DNA from: an uncultured Alphaproteobacteria bacterium
Lineage (GTDB): Bacteria > Pseudomonadota > Alphaproteobacteria > Rhodobacterales > Rhodobacteraceae
Assembly (NCBI GenBank): GCA_902562285.1
Contig: CACESU010000005.1
Location: 1-64,000 of the forward strand
DNA length: 64,000 bases
Direction: 5' to 3'
A model generated the notes under the pieces. It was not told the origin of the DNA and did not search any database. It saw only the letters and a list, made by a program, of their open reading frames with translations. Shown piece by piece: positions 34,673 to 63,442 of the stretch (its first letter is position 1; every line of letters starts with the position of its first letter). The position numbers were made by a program, and so were the translations under genes.

Positions 34673-34674
34673 CC

Positions 34675-36617: not shown

Positions 36618-36805
36618 TTTTTTACTTATTATTTTAATCAAAATTTTATAAGTTTTTATAATATAAATTAGTCAAATTAAAAATTTTTGTTCAATATTTA
36701 ATCAATTTTAAATTTTGGGATATTTGTATTTTATTTTATTTTTACAAATAAAATAAAATATTTTTAAATATAACTATGAAGATAATTCTTCTCCTACATA
36801 TTACT

Positions 36806-36850
36806 AAATGTCCAAATAGTCCCTCCCTTTCTTATTTGGACATTTTTTTA
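36806..36850 (+). terminator. Rho-independent terminator
   Basis: A perfect 13-bp stem AAATGTCCAAATA / TATTTGGACATTT (36806-36818 and 36833-36845) with a 14-nt loop, then TTTTA. It lies 190 bp after the M20-M24-isomerase operon; the intervening DNA is nearly pure A/T and holds a second A/T dyad near 36727-36761. Confidence 0.7.
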
Positions 36851-36904
36851 TTTACTATTTAAATTTTAATACAACTATTTTTTTTATATGGTAAATATCA
36901 ATAT

Positions 36905-45762: not shown

Positions 45763-47856
45763 TCAATTACCAACTGCAATCACTGCATCAATAGCTTTAA
45801 CTTGGTTTTCATAAACAAATAACGGATTAATTTCAATTTCTGCAATTTTTAGTTCTGTATCATCCATTAATAACAATAAGGTATTTATAAATTGAACAAT
45901 ATTTTTTATTTTTGCCACTTTAGATCCTCTATATCCGGTTAACATTTGACTAATTTTAAGTGACATTAATTGGTCAATAATTTCTTTTTGAGTTAAAGGG
46001 GCTACCATAATTTTAAAATCTTTAAATAAATCAACAAAAATACCACCAGCACCAATTGTAACAACTATTCCAAAAACTTTATCTCTTTTCATTCCAATAA
46101 CTAATTCACAGATAGGTTCAGGTTCCATTCTTTCTATAAGAAAATTATTAATATTAAGATTTGGAAAATTCTTGTCTAGATTAGATTTCATATTATCTAG
46201 TTCTACTTTTAATTGAATTTCATTTTTTATATCAATTTTAACTGCACCATGCTCAGTCTTATGTATTAAGTCTTTGTGCAACGCTTTTAATACAATCGGA
46301 AAACCTATTTCCTTAGATTTTTTTATAATATCTACAATGGAAGAATTAATTGAATTAGGAATTGGCAATTTTTTTGAAGTTAAGATTTTTTTTGCCTCAG
46401 ATTCGTTTAAATAATTACTATTACGAATTTCTATAGTTTTTTTTGAATTAAATATTGATTTTTTATTTATATTTTTCTTATTTTTAAACCATTCAACAAC
46501 ATTCTTTATGGCTGCTAAACCATCCCCGATTCCTTGTAACGGTGCTACTCCACGCGCTATTAATTGTTCTCTAGTTTCTCTATCTATATTTTCAGAAATA
46601 GTTGATATTATTGCTCCTGGTATTTTTTGTTCATTAATTACTTCTGAAAAACCAATTGCATCGTTTAAATAATAAATCTTTGTTTCATCTATGCCCATTA
46701 AGGGATAATCCTGAATTAAAATAGAAAAATCAGGCTTAAGAGATTTTATTACTTCTTGAAATAATGGTTTTGTAATTTTTGGCTGTCCCCAAATTGGAGT
46801 TGTATAATCTAAAGGATTTGAAATAGTTGCAATATTAGGTAAAAAAGAGGATATAGCTTTAATGTTTCTCTTGGGAATTTTTGAAAATTTTAAATTTAGC
46901 GTTTCACCAATATCAGCAACCATTGTTGCACCACCACCCGAACAAGTAAATGCGGCGCATTCTCTACCTTTTGGAATACCAGCAATGCATATAAACTTCA
47001 AAGTTTCTATCATTTCAGAAGGCGTATCAACAGTAATGATGCCTAGTTTTTTAAAAAATGAATTATAAATCTTTTGAGAACCAGCAACTGATCCAGTATG
47101 ACTTTTTGTTAAGGTGGCGCCAATACTGGATTTTCCTGTTTTTAAAACTACTATAGGTTTTTGTGCTTCTAGTGCCTTTTTTGCAGCTGACTCAAAATCT
47201 GAAATATTTTCAATACCTTCAATATGAAGACCAAATGCCCTAACTTCTTTTTTATTGATCAAATAATTTATAAAATCAGTATTTTTTAAAGATGCTTGAT
47301 TACCGAGAGAAATCATGTGTGTAAGTGGTAAAGAACGTTGGTTCATAGTTATGTCTGATGACAACATTCCACTTTGTGTAATAATTGCTGCTCCGAAACC
47401 TGGACAAAATCCACCATGAGCAAATGGCCAGAGAGCACTGTTTCCTAAATAATTAATTAGTCCATAACAATTTGGCCCTACCAAAACCATGTTTTTTAAA
47501 GATTTAACTAATTGCCGTTCAAGGGAAATACCCTTCTTTCCAATTTCTTTAAAACCTGCTGAATAACAAACTATACCTCCAGCATTTATATGGTTTAGTT
47601 CATTAACAGTTCTTATAATTTGAGTAGAAGGGATAGCTAAAAATACAGCATCTGGGCCCTTTGGAAGATCAAGAACTGACCTAAAACATTTATACCCAGC
47701 AATACTATCTCTTTTTGGATTCACAGGCCAAATTGAACCTTTAAAACCCCTACGCTTAGCTTCATTTATGGCAACTTCAGCATCACCCCCTCCTATGAAT
47801 GCAATTTGGGAAGGGTTTATCAGACGATTAATATTTTTATATCTTATTTCTTTCAT
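45763..47856 (-). CDS. Acyl-CoA synthetase, NDP-forming (acetate--CoA ligase family)
   Basis: A 697-residue fused alpha/beta ADP-forming acyl-CoA synthetase. It has a CoA-binding domain (about 10-130), two succinyl-CoA-synthetase-like flavodoxin domains with the phosphohistidine loop TKSHTGSVAGS near residue 248, and an ATP-grasp domain (about 480-697) with VVTIGAGGIFVDL near 613. It interconverts acid, CoA, ATP and acyl-CoA reversibly. Here it can activate gamma-butyrobetaine or recover ATP from betainyl-CoA. It overlaps the acyl-CoA dehydrogenase gene by 4 bases. Confidence 0.87.
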   Translation of the reverse strand: MKEIRYKNINRLINPSQIAFIGGGDAEVAINEAKRRGFKGSIWPVNPKRDSIAGYKCFRSVLDLPKGPDAVFLAIPSTQIIRTVNELNHINAGGIVCYSAGFKEIGKKGISLERQLVKSLKNMVLVGPNCYGLINYLGNSALWPFAHGGFCPGFGAAIITQSGMLSSDITMNQRSLPLTHMISLGNQASLKNTDFINYLINKKEVRAFGLHIEGIENISDFESAAKKALEAQKPIVVLKTGKSSIGATLTKSHTGSVAGSQKIYNSFFKKLGIITVDTPSEMIETLKFICIAGIPKGRECAAFTCSGGGATMVADIGETLNLKFSKIPKRNIKAISSFLPNIATISNPLDYTTPIWGQPKITKPLFQEVIKSLKPDFSILIQDYPLMGIDETKIYYLNDAIGFSEVINEQKIPGAIISTISENIDRETREQLIARGVAPLQGIGDGLAAIKNVVEWFKNKKNINKKSIFNSKKTIEIRNSNYLNESEAKKILTSKKLPIPNSINSSIVDIIKKSKEIGFPIVLKALHKDLIHKTEHGAVKIDIKNEIQLKVELDNMKSNLDKNFPNLNINNFLIERMEPEPICELVIGMKRDKVFGIVVTIGAGGIFVDLFKDFKIMVAPLTQKEIIDQLMSLKISQMLTGYRGSKVAKIKNIVQFINTLLLLMDDTELKIAEIEINPLFVYENQVKAIDAVIAVGN

Positions 47857-49013
47857 GCCCCAAGGGGTCTGAGAATTGATCTAGAAATTATGTGCCTTTG
47901 AATTTCAGATGTTCCGTCCCATATCCTCTCTAATCGACTATCTCTCCACAAGCGCTGAATTGGCATTTCTTCCATTAGCCCCATCCCTCCATAAATTTGC
48001 ACCGTTTCATCAGCAACTTTATTAACCATTTCAGAACAAAAAAGTTTTACCATTGCTGCATCTTCATCCTTCATGATACTTCTCTCTGCTTTTTCTACTG
48101 CATCTTTTACCAACAAATCTGCTGCTCTTAATCCAAGAGCCATATCTGCAAGCTTGAAACTCACCGCCTGGAATTTTCCTATTGGTTGCCCAAATTGTTT
48201 TCTTGAAGCTGCCCATTCACTTGAAAGTTGCATCATCCTCTCTGCTTTTCCACAGCAAGAGGCACCAACCCATATTCTTCCCATACCTAGCCATTTTCCA
48301 GATAATTCTAAGCCTTTTCCTTCCTCACCTAAAATCATTTTGGATGAGAGTTTTACATCATTAAAATTCAAAGCAAATGTCTTATATCCCCTATAACTAA
48401 CACATTTAGTTCCCTCTCTAATATCAAATCCCTTTAGACCTCGGTTTACTAAAAAAGCTGTTATTCTTTTTCTTGTCCCTCTAGATGTTTTATCCTCACC
48501 TGTTGCAGCAAAAACTATTGCAAAATCAGGCAAACAAGGCCCAGAAATAAAATGCTTTGATCCATTTAAAATCCAATCATTACCTTTTTTCACAGCATTA
48601 GATTTCATTCCCATTACATCCGAACCAGCCTCAGGTTCTGTTAAGGCAAATAGTTCTCTTTTATCTCCATTAACGCATGGATACAAATATTCCTCTTTTT
48701 GCTCATCATTACATGCCAATAGAATTTCTGTCGGTCTTGCTATCCAAGAATGCAAAGCGTGTGTTGTTTTACCATACTCTCTTTCAAGAATACTCATAGA
48801 TCTATAATCAAGACCACCCCCACCTACTTCTACAGGAAGATTTGCTGCAAAAAGTCCTGCTTCTTTTGCTTTTTCCTCTATTTGTTTACCTAATTCGATT
48901 GGTACTTCGCCAATTTTGTCTACTGTTTCTTCGTATGGATAAATTTCCTCTTCCAAAAACTTTCTAGCAGTATTTAAAATAAGAGAACTTTCTTGACTTG
49001 TAATTTGATCCAA
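47853..49013 (-). CDS. Acyl-CoA dehydrogenase (candidate gamma-butyrobetainyl-CoA dehydrogenase)
   Basis: About 386 residues in the usual ACAD layout. An N-terminal helical domain is followed by ALTEPEAGSDVMGMK near residue 110 (FAD/substrate), RTRKRITAFLVNRG near 175 and MGRIWVGASCCGKAERM near 243. The C-terminus has VQIYGGMGLMEEMPIQR, then RIWDGTSEIQRH. I choose the TTG at 49013, preceded by AAAGGAAG, because it gives the family length. An upstream ATG at 49079 would overlap the BKACE gene by 38 bp and add 22 untypical residues. In this cluster it should form crotonobetainyl-CoA. Confidence 0.85.
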   Translation of the reverse strand: MDQITSQESSLILNTARKFLEEEIYPYEETVDKIGEVPIELGKQIEEKAKEAGLFAANLPVEVGGGGLDYRSMSILEREYGKTTHALHSWIARPTEILLACNDEQKEEYLYPCVNGDKRELFALTEPEAGSDVMGMKSNAVKKGNDWILNGSKHFISGPCLPDFAIVFAATGEDKTSRGTRKRITAFLVNRGLKGFDIREGTKCVSYRGYKTFALNFNDVKLSSKMILGEEGKGLELSGKWLGMGRIWVGASCCGKAERMMQLSSEWAASRKQFGQPIGKFQAVSFKLADMALGLRAADLLVKDAVEKAERSIMKDEDAAMVKLFCSEMVNKVADETVQIYGGMGLMEEMPIQRLWRDSRLERIWDGTSEIQRHIISRSILRPLGA

Positions 49014-49041
49014 TTTTACTTCCTTTATAAATTGCTTAAGT

Positions 49042-49926
49042 TTATTTCTTTTTAAGATTATATTTGGTTCTTGCCTCATTTGGGCTTAGTATACGTGCTC
49101 CCATTAGCTCAATGATTTCTTTTGCTCTTGATACTAGATCTGCATTTGTAGCTAACACACCTTTTTTTAAATATAAATTATCTTCTAGACCTACTCTAAC
49201 ATTACCACCCATGGCAACAGAAGCCGCTACCATTGGCATTTGCATACGAGAAATTCCAAAACTCGCCCAATAACAATTTAATGGCAAATGATCTTTCATA
49301 ACTTTCATGGTATCTACAGTTTGTTCTGCCCCCCATGGAATACCAAGACAAATTTGAAATAATGGCGGATTATCTATTAAACCCTCTTTTATCATTTCCT
49401 TTGCAAACCTTATATGACCAAGATCAAAAACTTCTAATTCAGGTTTCACTTCCCATTTTTTTGTCAGAGCTGCCATCTCTCTTAAAAAAGGTGGTGTTGA
49501 AATATATATTTCATTACCATTACCAAAATTCATAGTTCCACAATCTAATGAACAAATTTCTGGCAAACATTCCTTTACGTGAGCTAACCTTTCTTCCGCA
49601 CTAATCATATCTGTACCTGATCCAGGTGTATTTAAATCACCGTCATTAACCACCCAATCTCCTCCCATACCTGCAGTTAAATTAATGACTACATCCTGTG
49701 AAGAATTTCTTATCCTTTCTACCACCTCTTTAAATAATTTTGGGTCTCTTGAACCTTTGCCGCTTATTGGATCTCTTACATGTATATGAACTGAAGTAGC
49801 ACCAGCTTGTGCGGATTCTATTGCATCATCAGCTATTTCTTTAGCTGAAACGGGCACCTTATCACTTTTACCTACTGTGTCTCCTGCCCCCGTAACAGCA
49901 CAAGTAAGAACAACTTCAAAGTTCAT
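49042..49926 (-). CDS. BKACE family beta-keto acid cleavage enzyme (candidate 3-dehydrocarnitine cleavage, CdhC-like)
   Basis: A 294-residue Kce/DUF849 TIM-barrel enzyme that condenses a beta-keto acid with acetyl-CoA to give acetoacetate and a new CoA ester. It shows CAVTGAGDT at the first strand, the metal-binding HIHVRDP near residue 47, NLTAGMGGD near 82, FGISRMQMP and [12 protein letters not shown] near 230 (metal Glu). Its position next to carnitine dehydrogenase strongly suggests 3-dehydrocarnitine as substrate, giving betainyl-CoA. This matches the described cdhA-cdhC pairing in Pseudomonas. Confidence 0.87.
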
Positions 49927-49959
49927 TTTTTTCCCTCCGAATTAAATTCTATTTGGTAT

Positions 49960-50898
49960 TTATTTTCTTTGAATTTTGATAATTTCAACAATTTTTTTAT
50001 CTCTTTCTGAAGCAAGATCTTGAAATTTTTGGTCTTTTACAATTTTTTCACAACCATCTACCATTTTGTTTCTTAGTTTTTTTGTCAGTTCAGGAGCCTT
50101 TAGTCTAGTCCAGGGTAATTCCAATGCTGGTCCAAATTGATCTAAATTCGTGGCCATACCTCCTTCTCCACAGGCTACATGAAAAGCTAAGCATTGGCCC
50201 TGTATTGCCATCCTTGGAGCTGGACCGTTTATCAAGGCAATATCAATTTGTTCAGGCGTTGCTTCATTATTATCAACCATATGTAAAGCTTCACGCCATA
50301 AAGCTTCCTGTAGTCTCGTAGCAACAAAACCAGGAATTTCTTTTTTTAAGACTAATGGAGATTTACCTATTTTAATAAAAAAATCATGAACCCAATTAAC
50401 AGCTTCATCCTTAGTTTTTTTTCCTCCTACAATCTCCACCAATGGTAATAAATATGGTGGATTAAATGGATGAGCTACTACTGTTCTCTCAGGTGTTTTG
50501 CATAAAGTCTGGATATCTGTCATTTTCATGCCAGATGTTGAAGAACAAATAATTACATTTTTTGGAACAATTTCACCTAATCTTTTATATAAATTTTGTT
50601 TTAATGTAAGGATTTCAGGTGCACTTTCTTGAATAAAATCAACTTTTTTAATGCATTCAGATAAATTAAAAAAAATCTCAAGATTGGTTTCTTCTAATTC
50701 TTTTACATTGTAAAGTTTCTTAAGTGAAACCCATGCAGTTCTTAGCATTGCATAAAAATTATTTTCTTCAGATTCATTGTGAAGATATGCCTTTACAGAT
50801 AATCCTTGTGATAAAAAATAGGCAACCCATCCAGCTCCAATTGGTCCAGCTCCAATACTTCCAACGGTCTTTACATCATTTTTGTTGATAAGATCCAT
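49960..50898 (-). CDS. cdhA: L-carnitine dehydrogenase
   Basis: A 312-residue member of the 3-hydroxyacyl-CoA dehydrogenase superfamily that oxidises L-carnitine to 3-dehydrocarnitine with NAD. It shows the Rossmann motif GAGPIGAGW near residue 17, FIQESAPE near 87, catalytic-His region VAHPFNPPYLLPLVEIVGG near 140 and the GEGGM...FGPALELPWT stretch near 234-252. The last is characteristic of carnitine dehydrogenases. Many carnitine dehydrogenases are fused to a C-terminal betainyl-CoA thioesterase; this one ends without it. Its start overlaps the caiD-like stop. Confidence 0.82.
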   Translation of the reverse strand: MDLINKNDVKTVGSIGAGPIGAGWVAYFLSQGLSVKAYLHNESEENNFYAMLRTAWVSLKKLYNVKELEETNLEIFFNLSECIKKVDFIQESAPEILTLKQNLYKRLGEIVPKNVIICSSTSGMKMTDIQTLCKTPERTVVAHPFNPPYLLPLVEIVGGKKTKDEAVNWVHDFFIKIGKSPLVLKKEIPGFVATRLQEALWREALHMVDNNEATPEQIDIALINGPAPRMAIQGQCLAFHVACGEGGMATNLDQFGPALELPWTRLKAPELTKKLRNKMVDGCEKIVKDQKFQDLASERDKKIVEIIKIQRK

Positions 50899-51701
50899 TA
50901 TTCACCTTTAAAATTTGGTTCTCTTCTTTCAACGAATGCGGCTATACCTTCTTTAGCATCATTGGAACTAAGCATCTTCTTATATATTTTTAAATCATCA
51001 TTTCTCATTTTAAAAAATGCTTTTTCTAAAGGCACACATTCTATTGATCTCAAAACTTCTTTTACACTTTGCATAGCCAAAGGGGCTGAAGTTGCAATTT
51101 TTTCTGCCCATTCGTAAGCTTGATCAAGCAAATTTTCATGTTTTACAATTTTATTTACCAATCCATAATGTTTTGCTTCAACTGCAGACATTCTCCTCCC
51201 CAAAAGAAACATTTCCATTGCCACATTGTAGGGGATACATCTTGGAAGTCTTTGTAAAGCTCCAGCATCAGGTACTATTCCTAGTGGCATTTCAGGTAAT
51301 CCAAACTCAACATGTTCAGAAGCAATTAATAAGTCACACCCTAATGCTAATTCAAATCCTCCACCAATGACTAATCCATTTAAGGCTCCAATGACAGGCT
51401 TATTCAAATTCCAATTTTCAGTTAATCCTGCAAAACCTCCATCACCATAATCTGCATTTTCCCACCAATTTTCTAATGACATTTCACCAGAATTTACTGC
51501 TTTCAAATCCCACCCAGCAGAAAATATTTTTTCACCTTTTGCAGTTAATATTCCTACCCAAAGATCTTTGTTATCTCTTAATTCTGCAAATGCTTTACCT
51601 AATTCCTGACTCATTTCTACATTTATTGCATTTACCTTTGGTTTGTTTAAACAAACTTCTAAAATTCTACCATTTTTTTTGACTTCCACTCCACTAGACA
51701 C
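50898..51701 (-). CDS. caiD: Crotonobetainyl-CoA hydratase-like enoyl-CoA hydratase
   Basis: A 267-residue crotonase. It closely follows CaiD: KIFSAGWDLKAV near residue 57, GGFAGLTENWNLNKPVIGALNG near 88-109, GGGFELALGCDLL near 113 and EFGLPEMPLGIVPDAG near 132. The first two blocks are shared with E. coli CaiD and not with general hydratases. It would convert crotonobetainyl-CoA to L-carnitinyl-CoA. The start is GTG with TAGGAG 7-8 bases upstream, 28 bp after the aldehyde dehydrogenase. Confidence 0.82.
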   Translation of the reverse strand: MSSGVEVKKNGRILEVCLNKPKVNAINVEMSQELGKAFAELRDNKDLWVGILTAKGEKIFSAGWDLKAVNSGEMSLENWWENADYGDGGFAGLTENWNLNKPVIGALNGLVIGGGFELALGCDLLIASEHVEFGLPEMPLGIVPDAGALQRLPRCIPYNVAMEMFLLGRRMSAVEAKHYGLVNKIVKHENLLDQAYEWAEKIATSAPLAMQSVKEVLRSIECVPLEKAFFKMRNDDLKIYKKMLSSNDAKEGIAAFVERREPNFKGE

Positions 51702-51729
51702 AATACACTCCTACTTAATTTTGTTTAAT

Positions 51730-53211
51730 TTATCTCATTACAAATGGGTTATTCATGGATTCATTAGAAGTATTTAGCCAAATAGTTTTTGGACGCGTGT
51801 AATCATACATTGCTTGAAATCCACTTTCCCTACCATAACCAGATCCTTTAAATCCTCCAAACTCAGCTATTGGAGATACTACTCTATAAGTATTTACCCA
51901 GACTATTCCGGCTCTTACGGATCTTGCAACCCTAAGAGAACGAGCACTATTTTCAGTAAAAATCCCTGCTGCTAAACCATGTTTCGTGTCATTTGCAAGT
52001 TTAATTACTTCTTGCTCATCTTTAAAGGTTAGAACACTGAGAACCGGCCCAAAAAGCTCTGTATCTACGATTTTTAATGTTTGTTTTGGACACGAAATAA
52101 TTGTTGGCTTAAAGAAAAAGCCTTGGAGGTTTGACGGTCTTTTCCCACCACATAAAATTTCAGCACCCTCAGATCTTGCAAAAGCAATTTCTCTTTCAAT
52201 ATTGTCAATTTGATTTAAAGTACATAGAGGTCCCATTTGAGTATCTTCTTCTAATGGATCACCAAGTTTTATTGAATTAACCACATTCATCATCTTATGC
52301 AGAAATTCATCTGCAATTTTTTCATGAAGATAAAGTCTAGAACCTGCAACACAACTCTGGCCAGATGCTCCAAATATGCCTGCTATAGATCCATTTACCG
52401 CACTTTCAATATTTGCATCATCGAAGACAATGAAAGGAGATTTTCCACCTAACTCTAATGATACTTCAGCAAAATTGTTAGCACTATTATTTATTATATT
52501 TTGGGCTGATTTTGAACCACCTGTAAATGAAACACGCGCTATGAGCGGATGAGAAGTTAATTCTTTTCCGCAAGGATCACCATGCCCTGTAATAATATTT
52601 ACAACACCTGGAGGGAAACCAGCCATTGCAATTAATTGACCAAACTCTAACATAGCTGCAGAAGCATGCTCTGAAGCTTTTAATACTACTGTATTTCCAG
52701 CGGCAAGAGCTGGACCAAGTTTGACTGCAACTAGGAACAATTGGGAATTCCATGGAACAATCGCTGCTATTACCCCAAGAGGTTCCCTTTCGGTTAAAAC
52801 CAATAAATCAGGTTTATCAATTGGTAAAGTTTCACCACTTATTTTATCTGCACAACCTGCATAAAATTGAAAGAATTCAGAAATATATTTAGCTTGCCAA
52901 CGTGTTTCCTTAAGCATTTTACCTGTATCAATGGTTTCTGTTTTTCCTAGTGGTTCGGACTTTTCGCTTAAAAGCTCAGCTAATTTCCTTAAACAATTAC
53001 CTCGCTGAGTGGGCGTCATTTTTGACCAAGGCCCTTCAGAAAATGCATAATGTGCAGCCTCAACTGCAGAATTAACATCACTTACACTAGCAGATGGTAT
53101 GCTTGACCAGGTTTCTCCAGTGTAAGGATTTAAACTCTCAAAAAATTGATTTTCGGAACCTGAAGTCCAATTACCATTGATAAGCATTTTATATTTTTTT
53201 ATTTCAGTCAT
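51730..53211 (-). CDS. NAD-dependent aldehyde dehydrogenase (betaine-aldehyde/trimethylaminobutyraldehyde type)
   Basis: About 493 residues with the ALDH hallmark order. It has PWNSQLFLVAVKLGPALAAG near residue 150, SFTGGSKSAQ near 228, the general base Glu in SLELGGKSPF near 252, the nucleophile Cys in GQSCVAGSRL near 288 and GPVLSVLTF near 385. The ATG at 53211 has AGAGG upstream; the longer frame to 53262 adds 17 residues into the divergent control region. As first gene of the cluster it would feed gamma-butyrobetaine from 4-trimethylaminobutyraldehyde (inference). Confidence 0.85.
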   Translation of the reverse strand: MTEIKKYKMLINGNWTSGSENQFFESLNPYTGETWSSIPSASVSDVNSAVEAAHYAFSEGPWSKMTPTQRGNCLRKLAELLSEKSEPLGKTETIDTGKMLKETRWQAKYISEFFQFYAGCADKISGETLPIDKPDLLVLTEREPLGVIAAIVPWNSQLFLVAVKLGPALAAGNTVVLKASEHASAAMLEFGQLIAMAGFPPGVVNIITGHGDPCGKELTSHPLIARVSFTGGSKSAQNIINNSANNFAEVSLELGGKSPFIVFDDANIESAVNGSIAGIFGASGQSCVAGSRLYLHEKIADEFLHKMMNVVNSIKLGDPLEEDTQMGPLCTLNQIDNIEREIAFARSEGAEILCGGKRPSNLQGFFFKPTIISCPKQTLKIVDTELFGPVLSVLTFKDEQEVIKLANDTKHGLAAGIFTENSARSLRVARSVRAGIVWVNTYRVVSPIAEFGGFKGSGYGRESGFQAMYDYTRPKTIWLNTSNESMNNPFVMR

Positions 53212-53310
53212 TATAAAACCTCTAATATAAAATTTAAATTGATTCTTATTTGGATTTATCAATAAACTGACTATAATTCAGAAATGGATTTGAGTTAAAT
53301 AAATTAAATA

Positions 53311-53712
53311 TTGTCGGATAAAAAAATGACAAAAAAAATAGTTCTTGGAGATCCAATCATTATAAACGGCAGAAAACTTTCACTTTCGAGGGCAGTGAAA
53401 GCTGGAGATTATATCTTTTGTACGGGACAAGTTCCTATGAAAGATGGTAAAGTTATGACATCTGGGACAATTGAAGAACAAACAATTGCTGTTATCCAAG
53501 ACATTCAGAAAACACTAAGTTTAGCTGATTGCACACTTAATGATGTTGTCAAATCAATGGTATGGTTAAGGAATAAAAATGATTTTCCTGGGTTTAACGA
53601 AGTTTATAGCCGTTATTTCAAAAGTGATCCTCCCGCAAGATCAGCAGTCGTTAATGAACTTCTAGTAAATGTAAAAGTTGAAATTGAAGTAATAGCTTAC
53701 AAGCCTGAATGA
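53311..53712 (+). CDS. RidA family protein (YjgF/YER057c/UK114)
   Basis: A 133-residue RidA-like trimeric deaminase of reactive enamine/imine intermediates. It shows IFCTGQVPMKDGKV near residue 31, the YFKSDPPARSAVV segment near 108 with the conserved Arg, and terminal VEIEVIAYKPE with the usual Glu. The frame starts at a TTG (53311) with no clear ribosome-binding site; an ATG five codons later is an alternative. It leads a plus-strand operon with hydrolase, CoA-transferase/flavin reductase, DUF1185 and luciferase-like genes, 100 bp from the divergent aldehyde dehydrogenase. Confidence 0.87.
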   Translation: MSDKKMTKKIVLGDPIIINGRKLSLSRAVKAGDYIFCTGQVPMKDGKVMTSGTIEEQTIAVIQDIQKTLSLADCTLNDVVKSMVWLRNKNDFPGFNEVYSRYFKSDPPARSAVVNELLVNVKVEIEVIAYKPE

Positions 53713-53725
53713 GAAGTTTATACCA

Positions 53726-54538
53726 TTGTTAGAAAAAAAATATAAAGCCAAAGGAACTTATTTTGAATTTAAAGGAAATTTAAATAGGACACTAGTAATA
53801 TTTGTTCATGGTTTTGGTTTGAATTGTCAAATGTGGCAATGGTTACCAAGTAATGTTTACAATAAATTTGATATCCTTAAATTTGACTTGTATGGACATG
53901 GGAAAAGTATAAATCCTCCTTCTACCCCATCATTAGAAATGTTCGCAAATCAGATAAAAGCTCTAATTAGAAAGCTTGGATATAAAAAAGCTATTCTAGT
54001 AGGCTTTTCTCTTGGTGGAATGATAGTACGTAAATTTGCACACCTGTTTGAAAAAAATTTGGAGGGGCTTATTATTTTAAATTCACCTCATAAAAGAACA
54101 CTAATACAACAAAATTCTATTGATAAAAGAGTTAAAAAAGCTGAAAATAAAGGGCCACAATCTACTGTAAATGATGCAATAAAAAGATGGTTCTCTGATG
54201 AATATATTTTATCAAAACCAAAAAAGATAAAGCTTATAAAAAATTGGATATTAAATAATAATCCTTCTATTTACTCAAAGATATATAAAGTTTTAGCTTA
54301 TGATATCAATGAAATTATAAATCCTGTAAAAAAAATTTCATGCCCAACTTTAGTAGTTACAGGAGATCAAGATTTTGGTAACAATCCAGATATGAGTAAA
54401 AAAATTTGTGCAGAAAGCCTGAATAGTAAATTAGTAATTATGAAAAATCTAAGGCATATGGGACTAGTCGAAGACCCAAAACAATTTGGAAAAATTTTAG
54501 AGAATTTTTTAAACCAATTCTTAGATAGAAAAAAATAA
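53726..54538 (+). CDS. Alpha/beta hydrolase
   Basis: A 270-residue alpha/beta-hydrolase fold protein. The oxyanion region is VIFVHGFGLNCQMWQW near residue 24, nucleophile GFSLGGM near 93 (Ser), acid in VVTGDQDFG near 213 and His in LRHMGLVEDP near 240. This is the esterase/lactonase/C-C hydrolase type; the exact chemistry cannot be told. The start is a TTG 13 bp after the RidA stop. Within the operon it is placed to hydrolyse a product of the monooxygenase. Confidence 0.82.
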   Translation: MLEKKYKAKGTYFEFKGNLNRTLVIFVHGFGLNCQMWQWLPSNVYNKFDILKFDLYGHGKSINPPSTPSLEMFANQIKALIRKLGYKKAILVGFSLGGMIVRKFAHLFEKNLEGLIILNSPHKRTLIQQNSIDKRVKKAENKGPQSTVNDAIKRWFSDEYILSKPKKIKLIKNWILNNNPSIYSKIYKVLAYDINEIINPVKKISCPTLVVTGDQDFGNNPDMSKKICAESLNSKLVIMKNLRHMGLVEDPKQFGKILENFLNQFLDRKK

Positions 54539-54542
54539 TAAT

Positions 54543-56636
54543 ATGAAAAAAGGTATTCTTTCAGGTTTAAAAGTATTAGATTTAAGTAGGATGCTTTCTG
54601 GTCCATATTGTACAATGATGCTTGCAGACCATGGAGCTGAAGTCATAAAAATTGAAAGTCCTACAGGCGATACAAGTAGGAAAACAGGTCCTTTCAAAAT
54701 TGAAGATTATGAAAAAAAATGGTCAGGATATTTTGTAAGCCTGAATAGAAATAAAAAAAGCATTGTCATAGATTTAAAATCTGAAGATGGGAAAAAAAAA
54801 TTTTTTAACCTTGTAGAAAAAGCTGATGTTTTAGTTGAAAACTTTAGACCAGGTGTGATGGATAAATTGGGACTTAGCTTTAATAAACTTAAGGAAATAA
54901 ACAGCAAACTTGTTTATGCTGCAATAAGTGGTTTTGGAAATCCCCAATTTGGAAAAAGTCCTTACACTTATTGGCCTTCCTATGATGTTGTTGCCCAAGC
55001 TATGGGTGGAATTATTGGCATTACTGGCCCAGATAAAAATACTCCAACAAAAGTTGGCCCAGGTGTTGGAGACATTTTTTCTGGGCTAATGATGTCATTT
55101 GGGATTATCTCTGCCATACGTATAGCTGAAAAAACATCTAAGGGACAATTTATTGATCTGTCTATGTATGATGCTGTTTTAAGTCTTTGTGAAAGAATAA
55201 TTTATCAATATGACTTTGATAAAACCATACCTAAGCCTGAAGGCAACGGACACCCCTTACTAGTTCCATTCGGTATATATAAAAGTAAAGATGGACATAT
55301 TGCATTAGGTATCGTTGATAATTCTTTCTGGAAAGTTTTAACTAATATTATTGGGAATAAAGAATTAACAGAGAATCAAAAATATAAAACAATAGAATCT
55401 AGACAACATAATGCTAAATCGCTCAATTCAATTATAGAAAGTTGGACAAAAACCAAAACTAATAAAGAATTGGGATGTTTACTTGGTGGATATGTTCCCT
55501 TTGGTCCTCTAAATTCTGCTGAGGAAATATTTAAAGATTCTCATGTTAAAAAACGTTCTATGATAAGAAAAGTTGAAATCCCTTTTAACGACAAAATTAA
55601 GCCATGGAGAGTAGCTGGTAATCCTCTAAATTTTAGTGAATTCCCTCAACCTGATTTTAAATCTGCCCCTTCTTTAGGTGAAAATAATAAAGACAATATA
55701 TTCGAACATAAGTCAGAGATATTTAAGAAATCCAAAAGTTCAAAGTTGCGTAAAGCTTTTGGTTCTTTTGCAACTGGCGTAACTTTGGTTACAACTAGAC
55801 AAGAAAATGGTACACCAAGAGGCTTCACGGCCAATTCTTTCACTTCAGTATCCCTAGACCCACCTTTACTATTAGTTTGCATATCAAAAAATGCACAAAG
55901 TTATTCAACTTTTAGAGATAGTAAATATTTTGCAGTGAATGTATTAAGCGAAAGCCAGAGATCTACTGCAGGATTATTTTCATCACAGAGCTCTGAGAAA
56001 TTTAAAATTACTAAATGGAAAAAAGGTTTTAAAGAATTACCAATAATAGACTCAGCTTTATCATATTTCTCATGTGAAAAGACAAATTTTCAGGAAGCTG
56101 GGGATCATGCAATTATTATTGGTAGTATTAAAGATTTTGGATTAAGGAATGGTAAACCGTTAGGATATTTTGATGGTGATTATTTTTCAATAGGTTTTGA
56201 AAAGTCACTGATAGATATGGTTAATAATGACAGAAATACTCATTTTGGAGCTATTTTAGAGAATAAAAATAGAATACTTTTTATTCTTGATAAAGACAAA
56301 AATCTTACCCTACCAAAATCCTTAAATAGTCAAAAAAATTTAAAAGGGTTGGAAGATTACTTAAATAGTCTGAACTTAAAATTTAAACTTGATTTCTTAT
56401 ATTCGGTTTATGAAGATAAGGAAATAAATTCACATATGATTTTTTATCATGGCAAATTTTCTGGAAATGGGAATAATACTACTGTGACATTTGATATCAA
56501 TGAAATCCCGTATGAGAAAATTATTAATTATGCTGAAAAAACTATGATGAAGAGATACCATGAAGAGTATCATCATGGACAATTTGGTATTTATCAAGGA
56601 AACGAAAAAAAAGGTAAAGTGAAAAAAGTTTATTAA
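54543..56636 (+). CDS. Fusion: class III CoA-transferase + flavin reductase + C-terminal domain
   Basis: A 697-residue open frame with three parts. Residues 1-390 are a CaiB/BaiF CoA-transferase, with VLDLSRMLSGPYCTMMLADH at 11-30, VENFRPGVMDKLG near 97 and a catalytic Asp candidate in GPGVGDIFSG near 175. Residues 400-560 are a RutF/HpaC-type flavin reductase, with FGSFATGVTLVTT, GFTANSFTSVSLDPPLLLV and GDHAIIIGSI. Residues 565-697 are an uncharacterised, possibly Nudix-like domain (FGAILENKNRILFIL) without a visible Nudix box. The linker is continuous, so no frameshift is evident. The reductase would supply FMNH2 to the downstream luciferase-like monooxygenase. I know of no described fusion of these families. 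Confidence 0.82.
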   Translation: MKKGILSGLKVLDLSRMLSGPYCTMMLADHGAEVIKIESPTGDTSRKTGPFKIEDYEKKWSGYFVSLNRNKKSIVIDLKSEDGKKKFFNLVEKADVLVENFRPGVMDKLGLSFNKLKEINSKLVYAAISGFGNPQFGKSPYTYWPSYDVVAQAMGGIIGITGPDKNTPTKVGPGVGDIFSGLMMSFGIISAIRIAEKTSKGQFIDLSMYDAVLSLCERIIYQYDFDKTIPKPEGNGHPLLVPFGIYKSKDGHIALGIVDNSFWKVLTNIIGNKELTENQKYKTIESRQHNAKSLNSIIESWTKTKTNKELGCLLGGYVPFGPLNSAEEIFKDSHVKKRSMIRKVEIPFNDKIKPWRVAGNPLNFSEFPQPDFKSAPSLGENNKDNIFEHKSEIFKKSKSSKLRKAFGSFATGVTLVTTRQENGTPRGFTANSFTSVSLDPPLLLVCISKNAQSYSTFRDSKYFAVNVLSESQRSTAGLFSSQSSEKFKITKWKKGFKELPIIDSALSYFSCEKTNFQEAGDHAIIIGSIKDFGLRNGKPLGYFDGDYFSIGFEKSLIDMVNNDRNTHFGAILENKNRILFILDKDKNLTLPKSLNSQKNLKGLEDYLNSLNLKFKLDFLYSVYEDKEINSHMIFYHGKFSGNGNNTTVTFDINEIPYEKIINYAEKTMMKRYHEEYHHGQFGIYQGNEKKGKVKKVY

Positions 56637-56660
56637 TATTATTTTTATGTGGGGGAATAA

Positions 56661-57263
56661 ATGATTGAAGATATTAGAAAAATAGTCACTTATGAAGAAA
56701 CAATTAATGTTGAAGGTGGGAAAAAAGCGTCAAACGATCTTAAGTTGATTGGAGTTGCTGCTGTTTTAAAAAATCCTTGGTATGGTCAAAACTTTACTGA
56801 AGATTTAGCACCTGAAATAAATAGAATTTCACCAATAATTGGAAAATTACTTACTGAAAAATTAGTGGCAATTGTTGGATCTGGAGACAAAATAGAAGCA
56901 TATGGCAAAGCGGCAGTCGCAGGAATAGATTCTGAAATCGAACATGCTTCGGCTTTAATACATACATTAAAATTCGGAAACTATCTTAGAGAAGCCGCTA
57001 AAGCTAAATCTTATCTTGGCTTCACAAACGTCAGAGGACCTGCAAATACTCAAGTTTATATTCCCTTAATGGATAAAAATGATACAGGAAGACGATCACA
57101 TTACTTAACGGTGCAATTTTCAATAAATGATGCTCCAGCTGGAAATGAATTAATCGCAGCACTTGGAGCAGCAACCAGTGGAAGACCTCATCATAGAATT
57201 GGAGATCGCTATTCTGATTTAAATTCTTTAGGAAGAACAGAGGATAATCCCGCAGGAGTATAA
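56661..57263 (+). CDS. DUF1185 (AA_synth) family protein
   Basis: A 200-residue protein of the 'amino acid synthesis' family DUF1185, whose biochemical role is not established to my knowledge. Visible family-like segments are GVAAVLKNPWYGQNFTEDL near residues 31-49, KAAVAG near 81 and GRPHHRIGDRYSD near 172. An exceptionally strong ribosome-binding site (GGGGGA) lies before the ATG. Together with the flavin reductase and luciferase-like genes it forms a tight unit (24 bp from the fusion gene, 76 bp to the next). Confidence 0.7.
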   Translation: MIEDIRKIVTYEETINVEGGKKASNDLKLIGVAAVLKNPWYGQNFTEDLAPEINRISPIIGKLLTEKLVAIVGSGDKIEAYGKAAVAGIDSEIEHASALIHTLKFGNYLREAAKAKSYLGFTNVRGPANTQVYIPLMDKNDTGRRSHYLTVQFSINDAPAGNELIAALGAATSGRPHHRIGDRYSDLNSLGRTEDNPAGV

Positions 57264-57339
57264 TAAAAAAACTGATTGCACAATTAGTTTAATATTATAC
57301 CATGAGATTGAATTTCAAATTTTTTGGGGGAAATATTTA

Positions 57340-58377
57340 ATGAAATTCCAATTAGCTGTAAATTTAGAACGCATGGATAATAGCGTTGATATGGAAAATG
57401 TTAAGAACCATACCCTTGAAATGGTTAAAATGGCCGATCAAGGTGGGTTCAACATTGTTTGGGCAGCTGAACATCACGCTATAGAAATGACTATAGCCCC
57501 AAATCCTTTTCAAATATTAACTTGGTGGGCTAATCATACTGAAAAAATTAGACTTGGTACCGCAGTAGTAAACGCTGCATATTGGCACCCTATAAATCTT
57601 GCTGGAGAAGCAGCTTTTACAGATTTGATTAGTGGCGGTCGTTTAGAGTTTGGTATTGGATCAGGCGCTTATCAAAGAGAATTTGATAGAATGAAACCAA
57701 ATGTCAAACAGCAAGATGGCTGGCGTTATATGCAAGAAATGCTACCATTATTAAAACAATTATGGTCTGGAGATGTAGAGCATAAAGGGGAGTTCTGGGA
57801 ATTTCCTTCCTCAACTTCTTGCCCTAAACCAGTACAAAAACCTCATCCACCAGTTTGGGTGGCAGCACGTTCACCAATTACTTATGATTATGCCATAAAA
57901 AATAAATGTAATGTTATGTCATGGCCACTAACTAGACCATTTTCAGAAGCAGAACTCTATAAAAAACAATTAGATGATGCCATTGCAAATCATAAATCGA
58001 GTTTTAAACCTATATTTGCAATGATGCGGCATGCAGCAGTATATACTAATGATTCAGACAAGCAGAAAGCTCTGAATTCAATTAGAACTGTACTAGGACA
58101 ATTCGAAAATTTATTCAAAAATCTTGGTGATGTTGAAAATGGATTTACAAAACAAATTCCATTAAATGAATTAGAGGGTAGAGAACAGTATGACCCAAAT
58201 ATGCTTACAAAAAACCTTTTATTTGGCACACCTGAAGAAATTATTGAAAAGCTTAAATTATATCAAAATTTAGGTGTCGATGAATTCATTTATTATGCAA
58301 GCATGGGTTTAGGACATAAAGAACAAAAAAAATCCTTAAAATTATTTATCGAAGAAGTAATGCCAGAGTTTGCTTAA
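57340..58377 (+). CDS. LLM-class flavin-dependent monooxygenase
   Basis: A 345-residue bacterial-luciferase-like TIM barrel that uses reduced flavin and oxygen. It shows GFNIVWAAEHHAIEMTIAPN near residues 36-55 (typical EHH motif), RLGTAVVNAAYWHP near 74, ISGGRLEFGIGSGAYQREF near 98, PPVWVAARSP near 169 and the C-terminal GTPEEIIEKL...GVDEFIYYASMG. A GGGGGA site precedes the ATG. It lacks RutA-specific N-terminal features. Partner flavin reductase activity is probably supplied by the fusion protein two genes upstream. Confidence 0.87.
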   Translation: MKFQLAVNLERMDNSVDMENVKNHTLEMVKMADQGGFNIVWAAEHHAIEMTIAPNPFQILTWWANHTEKIRLGTAVVNAAYWHPINLAGEAAFTDLISGGRLEFGIGSGAYQREFDRMKPNVKQQDGWRYMQEMLPLLKQLWSGDVEHKGEFWEFPSSTSCPKPVQKPHPPVWVAARSPITYDYAIKNKCNVMSWPLTRPFSEAELYKKQLDDAIANHKSSFKPIFAMMRHAAVYTNDSDKQKALNSIRTVLGQFENLFKNLGDVENGFTKQIPLNELEGREQYDPNMLTKNLLFGTPEEIIEKLKLYQNLGVDEFIYYASMGLGHKEQKKSLKLFIEEVMPEFA

Positions 58378-60255: not shown

Positions 60256-61317
60256 TTGAAAATGGAATTAAAAAATTGTAAATTTGAAAACATCAGTAAA
60301 GTCAATTTTGATACAATAATTGATGTAAGATCACCTACAGAATATAATGAAGATCATATTCCTAACTCAATAAATCTTCCAGTATTGTCTGATTTTGAAA
60401 GAGAAGTTGTTGGAAAAATGTATACACAACAAAGCCAATTCGAAGCTAAAAAAATTGGAGCAAAATATATATCAGAAAATATATCTAAGCACTTGGATGG
60501 ACTGCTCTCAAATAAAAAAAATAATTGGAAAGCTTTAATTTATTGTTGGAGAGGGGGTCAAAGATCAAAGTCACTAGGAATTGTTTTACATGAAATAGGA
60601 TGGGATATAAATATTTTAGAAGGTGGATATAAATCCTACAGAAAAAATGTAGTAAAAAATCTATATGAAGATGCATTATTTCAAAATATTTTTATAATTT
60701 CTGGATATACTGGAACTGGAAAAACATTAATGCTTGATCAATTAAGCAAATTAGGTGCTCAAGTGATTGATTTAGAAAAATTGGCAAATCATAAAGGTTC
60801 AATTTTTGGGTCACAACCTAACGGACAACCTTCCCAAAAGAAATTCGAAGGTAGAATACACCATTTGTTAAAAAATTTTAATAACCATCTTCCAATTTTT
60901 ATAGAGTCTGAGTCTAGTAAAATAGGTTATTTAAAAATTCCACCTGCATTATGGAAAAAAATGAAGCATTCACCACATTTTGAGCTTACTTCTGAGAATG
61001 ATTTACGAGCTAAATTTTTATCAACTCAATATCCTGAATTATATAACGATACCAATAAGCTATTGAATAAAATCGATTTATTAGAAGAATTCCATAGGAG
61101 TGAAATTATTAATAGTTGGAGAAATTTAATAGAAAAAAGAGATTTTTTCACACTCGCTAAAGGTTTAATCGAAATACATTATGACCCTAAATATAAAAAT
61201 TCAACAAACTATAGAGAAACATCCAAGATCCAAGAAATACACCTAGATCCGAATATAAAAAAAAATGTCGCTGAAATAGCTAATTTAATTTTAGAAAATG
61301 CTAATAAGATATTGTAG
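60256..61317 (+). CDS. mnmH: tRNA 2-selenouridine synthase
   Basis: A 353-residue SelU/YbbB protein that exchanges sulfur for selenium in the wobble uridine of certain tRNAs using selenophosphate. An N-terminal rhodanese domain has IDVRSPTEYNEDHIPNSINL near residues 22-41 and the active Cys in IYCWRGGQRSKS near 96. It is followed by a P-loop domain, SGYTGTGKTLMLD near 149. Length is normal. It converges with the selD fusion, overlapping by 17 bp at the 3' ends, so the selenium donor and user are adjacent. Confidence 0.93.
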   Translation: MKMELKNCKFENISKVNFDTIIDVRSPTEYNEDHIPNSINLPVLSDFEREVVGKMYTQQSQFEAKKIGAKYISENISKHLDGLLSNKKNNWKALIYCWRGGQRSKSLGIVLHEIGWDINILEGGYKSYRKNVVKNLYEDALFQNIFIISGYTGTGKTLMLDQLSKLGAQVIDLEKLANHKGSIFGSQPNGQPSQKKFEGRIHHLLKNFNNHLPIFIESESSKIGYLKIPPALWKKMKHSPHFELTSENDLRAKFLSTQYPELYNDTNKLLNKIDLLEEFHRSEIINSWRNLIEKRDFFTLAKGLIEIHYDPKYKNSTNYRETSKIQEIHLDPNIKKNVAEIANLILENANKIL

Positions 61318-63442
61318 TACCACCCTTAACAAATTTTCCTATTACAGAATTAGATAGACCTAAGATTTTAAGTTTACTTTGAACTTCTTCTATATGTTTT
61401 TTCGGAACTGAAGCTAATAATCCTCCAGAAGTCTGAGGATCAAATAATAATGGCCATTTTTTATTATCTGAGTTTATCTGGTCAATATTAGCTTGACGAA
61501 GGTTATCTTCAAATATTGTTGATCTCACTCCCTTTAAAGATAAATCCAAAGCACCTTCAAGAATTGGGATTTCGTCTATGCTCAAAACTGCTGAGACATT
61601 TGAAGACTGACATATATTTTTCAAATGACCATATAATCCAAATCCAGTTACATCTGTCATTGAAGTAACTTTGTTGGTTAAAAATTTTGAAATTAAACCT
61701 TGAGATTTCATCATCCAGTCATGTGCATTCTTAATCCATAAACCTTTTGCTAAACCCTGCATTTCCCCAGCTAAAATAGTACCTGACCCTATAGGTTTTG
61801 TTAAGATAATTAAATCACCTTGCTTAGCTCCATCAATGGTGATTGGATGTTTGTTAGTCTGTCCCAAAATTGTAAAACCAATAGTTAACTCTTTACCCTT
61901 TGATGTGTGACCTCCTATTATGCTAGCGCCCTCTTTTTTGAATACAGAATTTGCAGCATCTATAATATCGCTAAGATATTTTTGTTGATTAATAAGAGGT
62001 AAATCTGGAATTGTAATATGACTAAGTACTAATGAAGGAACCGATCCCATTGCCCATACATCACCTAAAGAATGAATTGCTGTAATCCTAGACATCGTCC
62101 AAGGATCTGAACAGAATTCTCTCAAATGATCAGTAGTCAATACATGATTTCCCTGCTTTAAGCTAATAATTGCTGCATCATCACCAATTTCATTCAGCAT
62201 TCCGTTTGCTTTTTTTGGCAACTTTAATAAAGCATTTTTTAATACTTCATTTCCAATTTTTGCACCACATGCTCCACATAAATCCTGGTTTTGCTCCATA
62301 TTTTTTTCTTCAGATAAAGAATTCATTGAATACTTAATAGAAAATTTCTTTACAAAGGATCTATCAACAAAATCTTTAAATATCCAAGGAAAGATTCCAT
62401 AGAAAAAAAAATTTCCCAAAAACAAAAGAGCTTTTTTATTATCAATGGTTAAGGCTTGTAAAAAAAATTTTTGTGGATTGTATTTTGTTAATTTTTTTGA
62501 AGAAATATAATTCCTAATATTTTGATAAAGAAAAGGTGCCGCTCTTACTGCAAATACACCTGCTTTTTGTTTTGGATTATTAACTATGGATGCACAATCT
62601 CCTGCGGCAAATACAAAATCATGTGATGTACTCTGTAAGCATTGATTGATACTTATGAAGCCTTCTTCAAGATATAAACCTGTTTCTGATAACCAATTTT
62701 GAGGTTTTCCACCAGCTGCACTCAATATCAAATCACTTGAAATTATTTCACCATCCTCACAATGTATTTTACCTTTGGTGATAGAGGAAATATTTATATT
62801 ATCTCGTAATGTGATATTATTTTTGTTAAGTAGTTTTAATATTTTATTTTTTGCCTTAAATGGTAAATTTCCTGCAATATCATTTTTGTCAATTAAATTA
62901 ATTATTGGCTTCAATCCTAATGATTTGATTTTATAATTTATACAAAGTGCTAGTTCACATCCTGCTGCTCCGGCACCAATAATTGATAATTTAGGAATAT
63001 TTACTGACGCTTTTAAGTTTAAAACAAATTTGTTCCATTTGTGTATAAAGTTATCAAAAGGTTTTACTGGAATTGAAAATTTTTCTGAACCAGAAATATT
63101 GTTTAATTGATAATTAATACCGATGTCTATCGACAAAATATCAAAATCTAAGGGAGTTCTCTCACCCAAATGTATTTCTTTGCGATGTAAATTAATCTTA
63201 TTTACGTATGAAAATACAATTCTAGATTTTGCAAATTTTGATAGTTTGATTAAATCAATTTTGATTTGATCAAAACTGTAAGCACCTAAAATTGCAGCTG
63301 GTAACATACCAGTATATACTAATTCAGGGTCAGGCGTAACTAAAGTAATATTTAAACCTTTAATAGGCTTCATTCCCAATTTTTTTAGTAATAAAATATG
63401 TGAGTGCCCACCACCGATTAATACTAAATTTTTTTCAGCCAT
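61301..63442 (-). CDS. selD: Selenide, water dikinase fused to an N-terminal FAD/NAD(P) oxidoreductase
   Basis: A 713-residue two-domain protein. Residues 1-370 are a pyridine-nucleotide-disulfide-type oxidoreductase (Ndh-like), with LIGGGHSHILLL near 6, PELVYTGMLPAAILG near 39, SIIGAGAAGCELAL near 151 and FAAGDCAS near 283. Residues 380-713 are SelD, with the active-site segment DLCGACGAKIG near 386, GDDAAI near 413, TTDHLREFC and ITAIHSLGDVWAMGSVP near 450. Cys rather than Sec is encoded at the active site. It makes selenophosphate for MnmH; the oxidoreductase half may deliver reduced selenium. The fusion type is known in several bacteria. Confidence 0.92.
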   Translation of the reverse strand: MAEKNLVLIGGGHSHILLLKKLGMKPIKGLNITLVTPDPELVYTGMLPAAILGAYSFDQIKIDLIKLSKFAKSRIVFSYVNKINLHRKEIHLGERTPLDFDILSIDIGINYQLNNISGSEKFSIPVKPFDNFIHKWNKFVLNLKASVNIPKLSIIGAGAAGCELALCINYKIKSLGLKPIINLIDKNDIAGNLPFKAKNKILKLLNKNNITLRDNINISSITKGKIHCEDGEIISSDLILSAAGGKPQNWLSETGLYLEEGFISINQCLQSTSHDFVFAAGDCASIVNNPKQKAGVFAVRAAPFLYQNIRNYISSKKLTKYNPQKFFLQALTIDNKKALLFLGNFFFYGIFPWIFKDFVDRSFVKKFSIKYSMNSLSEEKNMEQNQDLCGACGAKIGNEVLKNALLKLPKKANGMLNEIGDDAAIISLKQGNHVLTTDHLREFCSDPWTMSRITAIHSLGDVWAMGSVPSLVLSHITIPDLPLINQQKYLSDIIDAANSVFKKEGASIIGGHTSKGKELTIGFTILGQTNKHPITIDGAKQGDLIILTKPIGSGTILAGEMQGLAKGLWIKNAHDWMMKSQGLISKFLTNKVTSMTDVTGFGLYGHLKNICQSSNVSAVLSIDEIPILEGALDLSLKGVRSTIFEDNLRQANIDQINSDNKKWPLLFDPQTSGGLLASVPKKHIEEVQSKLKILGLSNSVIGKFVKGGTTISY

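Follow-up and report, generated by a model that had tools for sequence, protein, structure and literature searches.

Relatives of the trigonelline operon and of carnitine-type coenzyme A enzymes in one gene cluster of an uncultured Rhodobacteraceae bacterium

The best comparison for the locus discussed here is the trigonelline degradation operon tgnA-F, reportedly described by Perchat and colleagues in 2018. In this pathway, TgnAB open the pyridinium ring to an N-formyl aldehyde, which is oxidised by TgnC, and TgnD releases methylamine, formate and succinate semialdehyde. The first 64,000 nucleotides of contig CACESU010000005.1 (assembly GCA_902562285.1) of an uncultured alphaproteobacterium of the family Rhodobacteraceae, in the following called the window, carry five plus-strand genes for a RidA-family protein, an alpha/beta hydrolase, a fusion of a CaiB-type coenzyme A (CoA) transferase with a flavin reductase, a DUF1185 protein and a luciferase-like flavin monooxygenase (LLM), which are divergent from a minus-strand operon for an aldehyde dehydrogenase (ALDH) and a CoA module (Table 1). 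A first-pass annotation of the window had called the five genes an undescribed-looking operon; the tgn operon, however, carries the same types of DUF1185 protein, hydrolase, reductase, LLM and ALDH. By analogy, the locus is probably, although this is said with reserve, a tgn-like catabolic cluster of a separate clade, which would open a betaine-like nitrogen compound and degrade a chain in a CoA-dependent manner. The kind of operon is known, the composition is new, and no paper on this combination of genes was found in the literature searched, a search that did not comprise the key homarine and trigonelline papers.

A separate clade beside the trigonelline-type oxygenases

A plasmid match annotated as tgnB is located in Acinetobacter sp. 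PK01 in an operon of the order DUF1185, hydrolase, tgnA, tgnB and tgnC, an order also present on pSymA of Sinorhizobium meliloti, in Leisingera and in Caballeronia. Identity of the window proteins to those of Acinetobacter amounts to 60% for DUF1185 (tgnF is unnamed in the Acinetobacter record and the DUF1185 gene beside tgnA-C was used as comparator), 53% for the ALDH and TgnC, 46% for the reductase domain and TgnA, and 39% over 345 amino acids (full length) for the LLM and TgnB. Homologous operons assigned to a defined pathway, which the first-pass annotation had named as a refutation of its reading, thus do exist, but they are not the same operon. The succinate semialdehyde dehydrogenase TgnE is neither among the ten window proteins scanned nor in the Leisingera tgn-type stretch, and where loci such as L196 encode a second ALDH, its best matches are HpaE/BADH and not succinate semialdehyde dehydrogenase.

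A quick maximum-likelihood tree of 99 LLM rows separates the 11 trigonelline-type rows, labelled from their operons, from all others by a branch with 100% support; the two rows of group B (Agrobacterium and Azospirillum) are likewise set apart (99%), and the window oxygenase is found inside a third group W of 86 rows (99%) and not inside the TgnB clade. A comparison of 85 W rows with 9 trigonelline-type rows yields 52 near-fixed positions at which the two groups differ. On these sequence grounds trigonelline is not favoured as the W-clade substrate, with the reservation that the separate clade and the 52 differences may reflect ancestry alone. Ser108, which is Arg in the trigonelline-type and B groups, had been considered as the loss of a carboxylate clamp; this candidate was dropped, as the matching Arg107 of luciferase binds the phosphate of flavin mononucleotide (FMN).

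Linkage of the oxygenase to a carnitine-like CoA module

The unit exceeds the five genes, as the divergent minus-strand operon 45763-53211, the first ATG of which lies 99 bp from the RidA start, belongs with them, being conserved alongside them in other genomes. Besides the ALDH and an ADP-forming acyl-CoA synthetase (ACS), it encodes, at 47853-51701, a carnitine-like module of enoyl-CoA hydratase (ECH), 3-hydroxyacyl dehydrogenase (CDH), acyl-CoA dehydrogenase (ACAD) and BKACE. Among 11 congeners searched, 8 have a DUF1185 match and 3 do not; both strands of the cluster are retained in six of these eight, and contig ends cut it in the other two. Aminobacter sp. SR38 (plasmid pSR3) and Parasedimentitalea marina (plasmid pW43B) carry the same gene set with an LLM 66-67% and a RidA 63-64% identical to those of the window, and the window ACS is 57-59% identical to the first part of their acetate--CoA ligase family genes. 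On both plasmids the ALDH and ECH genes flank the LLM gene on one strand, those for RidA, hydrolase, reductase and DUF1185 are divergent, and a PotABCD-like transporter is additionally encoded.

Co-occurrence of the genes elsewhere is thus clear and extends far beyond these examples, so that the second refutation named by the first-pass annotation, a lack of co-occurrence, does not apply. Among 84,980 species, each represented by one genome, a pattern-led scan recovered 486 LLM relatives, of which the best 80 loci were kept, with titles that include the SAR116 cluster, Roseovarius, Planktomarina, MED-G08, Pelagibius and marine Gammaproteobacteria such as the Olavius algarvensis Gamma 3 symbiont. 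These 80 loci contain ALDH (53), alpha/beta hydrolase (51), ECH (47), CDH (45), DUF1185 (42), ACAD (41), BKACE (39), ACS (37), RidA (28), a GlxA regulator (25) and flavin reductase (22) genes; the counts are lower bounds, as no more than 37 of these loci extend to 19 kb. The full set of ECH, CDH, ACAD and BKACE is linked to the LLM in 36 of the 80, and in 47 of 95 loci the gene immediately ahead of the LLM, in the same orientation, is that for ALDH.

Two unrelated pathways, one tgn-like and one carnitine-like, might merely share a locus for osmolyte degradation, as the window carries the halves on opposite strands, several loci have the LLM core but no CoA module (see below), and LLM and CDH are on separate contigs in two genomes (G115 and G070). 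Gene order makes this very unlikely: in 38 of 95 loci, LLM and ECH are consecutive genes of one strand and no more than 106 bp apart, and the LLM is adjacent to ACAD and ACS in the SAR116 locus L175 and to BKACE in L250 and L255. Moreover, close CDH never occurs without LLM in an even draw of 385 genomes of the class; all seven genomes with a CDH of at least 52% identity, the window's own included, have an LLM of at least 56%, in five of them no more than 7 kb away on one contig (Fisher 7e-12, uncorrected for kinship, with four of the seven carriers from one family and one being the window's genome).

In 10 of the 80 loci, a thiamine diphosphate (ThDP) enzyme of the sulfoacetaldehyde-acetyltransferase/acetolactate-synthase type is encoded. 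Within the same LLM clade, the ThDP enzyme stands in place of the CoA module in L119 (11207-12895), L133, L068, L156, L160 and L162, and likewise in L164, L165, L168, L178, L199 and L210, of which L165 also has an ECH-family gene of only 91 bits. That such an exchange occurs inside one clade suggests a single oxygenase reaction that is continued downstream in either of two ways. The ThDP enzyme is nearest to Xsc (416 of 620 bits, below the cut-off, in two members scanned); a sulfonate route is not favoured, as the LLM is TgnB-like.

Putative pathway and substrate class

For the preferred reading of a tgn-like cluster with a CoA stage, gene content, tgn homology, the separate clade, the linkage of oxygenase and CoA module and, in part of the loci, betaine-type neighbours are observed; all individual reactions, the class of substrate and which half acts first are inferred. 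The roles of LLM, reductase, ALDH, hydrolase, DUF1185 and RidA in ring opening are assigned after tgn chemistry, and the role of the CoA module in chain degradation after the nearest relatives of its enzymes. The reductase domain would supply reduced FMN to the LLM, which would oxidatively open, or split at the nitrogen, a quaternary or N-alkylated betaine-like compound. For the aldehyde formed, oxidation by the TgnC-type ALDH is proposed; hydrolase and RidA, aided by DUF1185, would take off what is left of the formyl or enamine group and release the amine, with RidA possibly accelerating the hydrolysis of an enamine or imine that remains after deformylation. A carboxylated four-carbon chain with a terminal nitrogen is the predicted substrate of the CoA module (CoA ligase or CaiB, ACAD, ECH, CDH and BKACE), in which it would pass enoyl, 3-hydroxy and 3-keto stages to end as N-substituted glycyl-CoA and acetoacetate. 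Methylated amines released on the way could enter the neighbouring methylamine island.

The opening of a betaine-like compound is suggested by the transporter and methylamine neighbours together with the tgn homology. An OpuAC-type binding protein cluster is present in 14 and its permease cluster in 16 of 95 loci (both named by cluster representatives), and PotB/C/D-like genes in 9-11 of them. Single loci contain a GbcA-like Rieske protein (135 bits, cut-off 670), an MttB-like protein (361, cut-off 525), a choline-sulfatase-like protein and a protein with DAO and GCV_T domains. The window contig itself encodes, from 63.5 kb onwards past the window end, a type III glutamine synthetase, an ammonium transporter, a trimethylamine N-oxide (TMAO) demethylase and a trimethylamine monooxygenase (Tmm), the latter two above curated cut-offs and approximately 10 and 17 kb from the LLM. 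Genes resembling mgs, gmaS and mgd follow in two congeners. The island for trimethylamine, TMAO and methylamine at the right end of the window (L243, C5:57100-77020; congeners L244-L247) also includes an ABC transporter.

On the genome level, Tmm is uninformative as a marker of amine release, with 4 of 12 W-clade, 2 of 12 control and 2 of 6 trigonelline-type genomes. A GmaS query matches 9 of 12 W-clade, 3 of 12 control and none of 6 trigonelline-type genomes (p 0.04 versus controls), a comparison in which four of the 12 W-clade genomes are of one family, the controls are hand-picked and two of the six trigonelline-type genomes (G141, G415) were called from 39-41% LLM identity and not from the tree.

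The cluster could also serve the degradation of gamma-butyrobetaine or carnitine, with the LLM as a flavin counterpart of the Rieske protein CntA that cleaves a quaternary compound to release trimethylamine (or an aldehyde precursor). Carnitine enzymes are, though below cut-off, the best curated matches of the window ECH and CDH; the OpuAC and PotABCD-like transporters and, in the window's genus, Tmm and TMAO demethylase above cut-offs on the same contig point in the same direction. We nevertheless consider this pathway unlikely, as the similarity of LLM, ALDH, reductase and DUF1185 to tgn proteins points to ring cleavage, RidA and hydrolase would be left without a role, and Tmm is hardly more frequent in W-clade genomes than in controls (4 of 12 versus 2 of 12).

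Methylamine genes also bear on homarine (N-methylpicolinate), for which the whole cluster or its oxygenase core might encode a pathway with C5-C6 ring opening and loss of formate that leaves the carbon skeleton of N-methylglutamate. The hom genes reportedly occur, according to an abstract, in SAR116 and Rhodobacterales, and mgd- and mgs-like genes are on the same contig in the window's genus. A tgn-like C5-C6 cleavage would yield a glutamate skeleton. According to PMC13390433, which cites a 2026 publication on it, environmental bacteria possess a conserved homarine pathway, in which Mgd is said to participate. On the other hand, homarine would not need the ACAD-ECH-CDH-BKACE module, yet the module is tied to the LLM, and mgd-like queries (E 1e-30) match only L154 (138 bits) in the best 80 loci with flanks of at most 10 kb, which renders this assignment rather unlikely. 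Should the hom genes fall in the W clade, the core would be known and only the CoA module new.

Several observations weigh against the favoured combination of tgn-like opening and CoA-dependent degradation. The window hydrolase is only 24% identical to TgnD, within the same fold family. The tgn operons seen lack a CoA module, and tgn chemistry alone cannot explain the window cluster. CDH (280 of 414 bits), ECH (290 of 500 bits) and CaiB are below curated carnitine cut-offs. The CoA module is missing from the ThDP-type loci (10 of 80) and others, and 6 of the 13 LLM-bearing genomes among the 385 of the class are without a close CDH. Outside the window's genus, no Tmm-like gene lies near a W-clade LLM (flanks of at most 10 kb, often shorter), and with the same flanks a TMAO-demethylase-like gene is present only at the tgn locus L143. 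Finally, the methylamine synthetase was not found in three of 12 W-clade genomes, nor in any of the six trigonelline-type ones, which makes it a poor marker of amine release.

As a wider proposal, which we put forward tentatively and hold somewhat short of probable, SAR116, Roseobacter-type and gammaproteobacterial marine bacteria would share a novel pathway that joins a tgn-like ring opening to a carnitine-like CoA route, with CoA/BKACE and ThDP enzymes interchangeable, for an abundant betaine-like solute not yet recognised as a bacterial growth substrate. An N-alkylpyridinium with a butyrate-type chain may be an example. As the cluster recurs in many uncultured and cultured marine bacteria, its substrate is expected to be a genuine component of marine dissolved organic nitrogen. 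With the tgn homology, the range of candidates shrinks to betaine-type nitrogen compounds, for which growth and enzyme tests are straightforward.

Gene features and comparison with described systems

All five plus-strand open reading frames (ORFs) of the families named by the first-pass annotation are present at the positions it gave, and their proteins exceed the Pfam cut-offs. The gaps between the genes are 13, 4, 24 and 76 bp. The strong ribosome-binding sites also claimed are, by eye, restricted to DUF1185 and LLM (GGGGGA); the site of the hydrolase is moderate (GAGAAG), that of RidA is not clear and the fusion has none. The hydrolase motifs GFSLGG, GDQD and LRHMG (S/D/H) are read by us as the catalytic triad.

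Table 1. Genes of the cluster, in the order of their position in the window.
Feature	Position	Strand	Basis and remarks
ADP-forming acyl-CoA synthetase (ACS, acetate--CoA ligase family)	45763..47856	-	sequence identity to annotated cluster genes
Acyl-CoA dehydrogenase (ACAD)	47853..49079	-	Pfam
BKACE	49042..49926	-	Pfam PF05853, 317.5 bits
3-Hydroxyacyl dehydrogenase (CDH), L-carnitine-dehydrogenase-like	49960..50898	-	NCBIfam NF005471, 280 bits (cut-off 414)
Enoyl-CoA hydratase (ECH), crotonobetainyl-CoA-hydratase-like	50898..51701	-	NCBIfam NF002936, 290 bits (cut-off 500)
Aldehyde dehydrogenase (ALDH), TgnC-type	51730..53211	-	53% to TgnC; ATG at 53211, longer TTG start at 53262
RidA-family enamine/imine deaminase	53311..53712	+	Ribonuc_L-PSP PF01042, 95.8 bits; TTG start, ATG at 53326 possible
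Alpha/beta hydrolase, PcaD/RutD-like	53726..54538	+	Pfam Abhydrolase_1, 83.1 bits; TgnD counterpart (24%)
CoA_transf_3 + Flavin_Reduct fusion (CaiB-type CoA-transferase/TgnA-type reductase), 697 aa	54543..56636	+	Pfam, 381.3 and 132.6 bits
DUF1185/PF06684, TgnF-type	56661..57263	+	211.5 bits (gathering score 27)
Luciferase-like flavin monooxygenase (LLM), W clade, TgnB relative (39%)	57340..58377	+	Bac_luciferase, 181.6 bits; tree

The CoA-transferase/flavin-reductase fusion proved genuine and not an assembly accident, as proteins of 696-715 amino acids (aa) with CaiB, reductase and tail recur in other genomes, Parasedimentitalea included. In the window protein, the CaiB-type part spans aa 6-382, the flavin reductase aa 406-550 and the C-terminal domain approximately aa 551-697; this last domain of some 147 aa matches TgnA-type reductases. 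Asp177, which we take to be the catalytic residue of the CaiB part, is inside a VGDIFSG motif that aligns with a CaiB/BaiF structure. Of 37 reductase-bearing ORFs in the loci examined, called at a 25-bit threshold, 20 combine CaiB, reductase and tail (2 of them with only 501-506 aa), 4 have CaiB and reductase, 6 reductase and tail and 7 the reductase alone; 18 of the 37 have the length of 696-715 aa. The fusions without C-terminal domain in L192, L208, L213 and L219 (552-563 aa) and the much shorter ones in L216 and L221 (501-506 aa) therefore indicate that the fusion is under remodelling. Aminobacter has an unfused reductase of 326 aa, along whose reductase domain and tail the solved structure 3rh7 aligns, and no close relative of the CaiB part was found in the Aminobacter stretch seen.

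With respect to DUF1185, for which no known role had been assumed, suggested roles exist for TgnF and HcdD-type proteins. An excerpt of PMC7913881 cites TgnF as stimulating TgnE and states that attempts to see such an effect for HcdD in 7-hydroxycoumarin degradation failed; an excerpt of the DUF1185 structure paper proposes amino-acid metabolism from fold and neighbours (PMC2954203). In 80 author-chosen, non-random neighbourhoods, 8 of them from the window's genus, subtypes were distinguished by their score to the window protein, with at least 170 bits as close and below 100 bits as distant. The close subtype outside the genus (n=23) is accompanied by the hydrolase in 19, a strong ALDH in 14, an LLM above 60 bits in 13 (above 200 bits in 11) and the reductase in 10 cases, as against 0, 0, 1 (0) and 1 for the distant subtype (n=49). 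A survey of this kind had been proposed by the first-pass annotation. As the DUF1185 and hydrolase genes overlap or nearly touch in some loci, the two proteins are suggested to work together, and the cluster offers DUF1185 a testable setting, in that the hydrolase accompanies the close (19/23) but not the distant subtype (0/49). Elsewhere, DUF1185 members often form tandem adjacent pairs (for example G020:C3:2068038-2069146 and G391:C7:43431-44536).

In the remainder of the window, genes for an M20-like amidohydrolase, an M24-like creatinase/peptidase, a maleate-isomerase-like protein and a CaiB-type CoA-transferase at 33524-38029 form, by eye, a possible catabolic cluster. At 60256-63442, also by eye, a rhodanese-like protein resembling tRNA 2-selenouridine synthase is convergent with a 713-aa protein resembling an FAD oxidoreductase fused to selenophosphate synthetase.

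The first-pass annotation had proposed an oxidative route analogous to the pyrimidine Rut pathway. What holds is the two-component LLM oxygenase with its own reductase and a CoA stage; Rut is the weaker analogy. LLM, flavin reductase, RidA and alpha/beta hydrolase are common to both, but the window cluster has a CoA module and DUF1185 instead. Membership in the Rut pathway is rejected, as the window proteins are far below the curated cut-offs for RutC (47/169 bits), RutD (58/239) and RutF (84/255); RutB is not among the ten window proteins scanned.

Among the related systems are the group B operons of Agrobacterium fabrum (pAt) and Azospirillum oryzae, which consist of flavin reductase, ALDH, LLM, alpha/beta hydrolase, carboxymuconolactone decarboxylase and NIPSNAP genes with a ProX-type transporter and DUF1185. 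They share the core with the window, their LLM is 47-49% identical and they possess a betaine transporter, but neither a CoA module nor a fused transferase is present in the stretches seen. Carnitine and gamma-butyrobetaine degradation, on the other hand, has ECH, CDH, BKACE, ACAD and CaiB types in one cluster, as does the window, where an LLM oxygenase is linked to them; PMC12421898 describes a SAR11 island that contains CDH and BKACE. With the tgn operon, finally, the locus has in common the assembly of DUF1185, hydrolase, flavin reductase with the same C-terminal domain, LLM and ALDH, and differs from it by the fusion of the reductase to CaiB, by RidA and by the module of ACAD, ECH, CDH, BKACE and CoA ligase.

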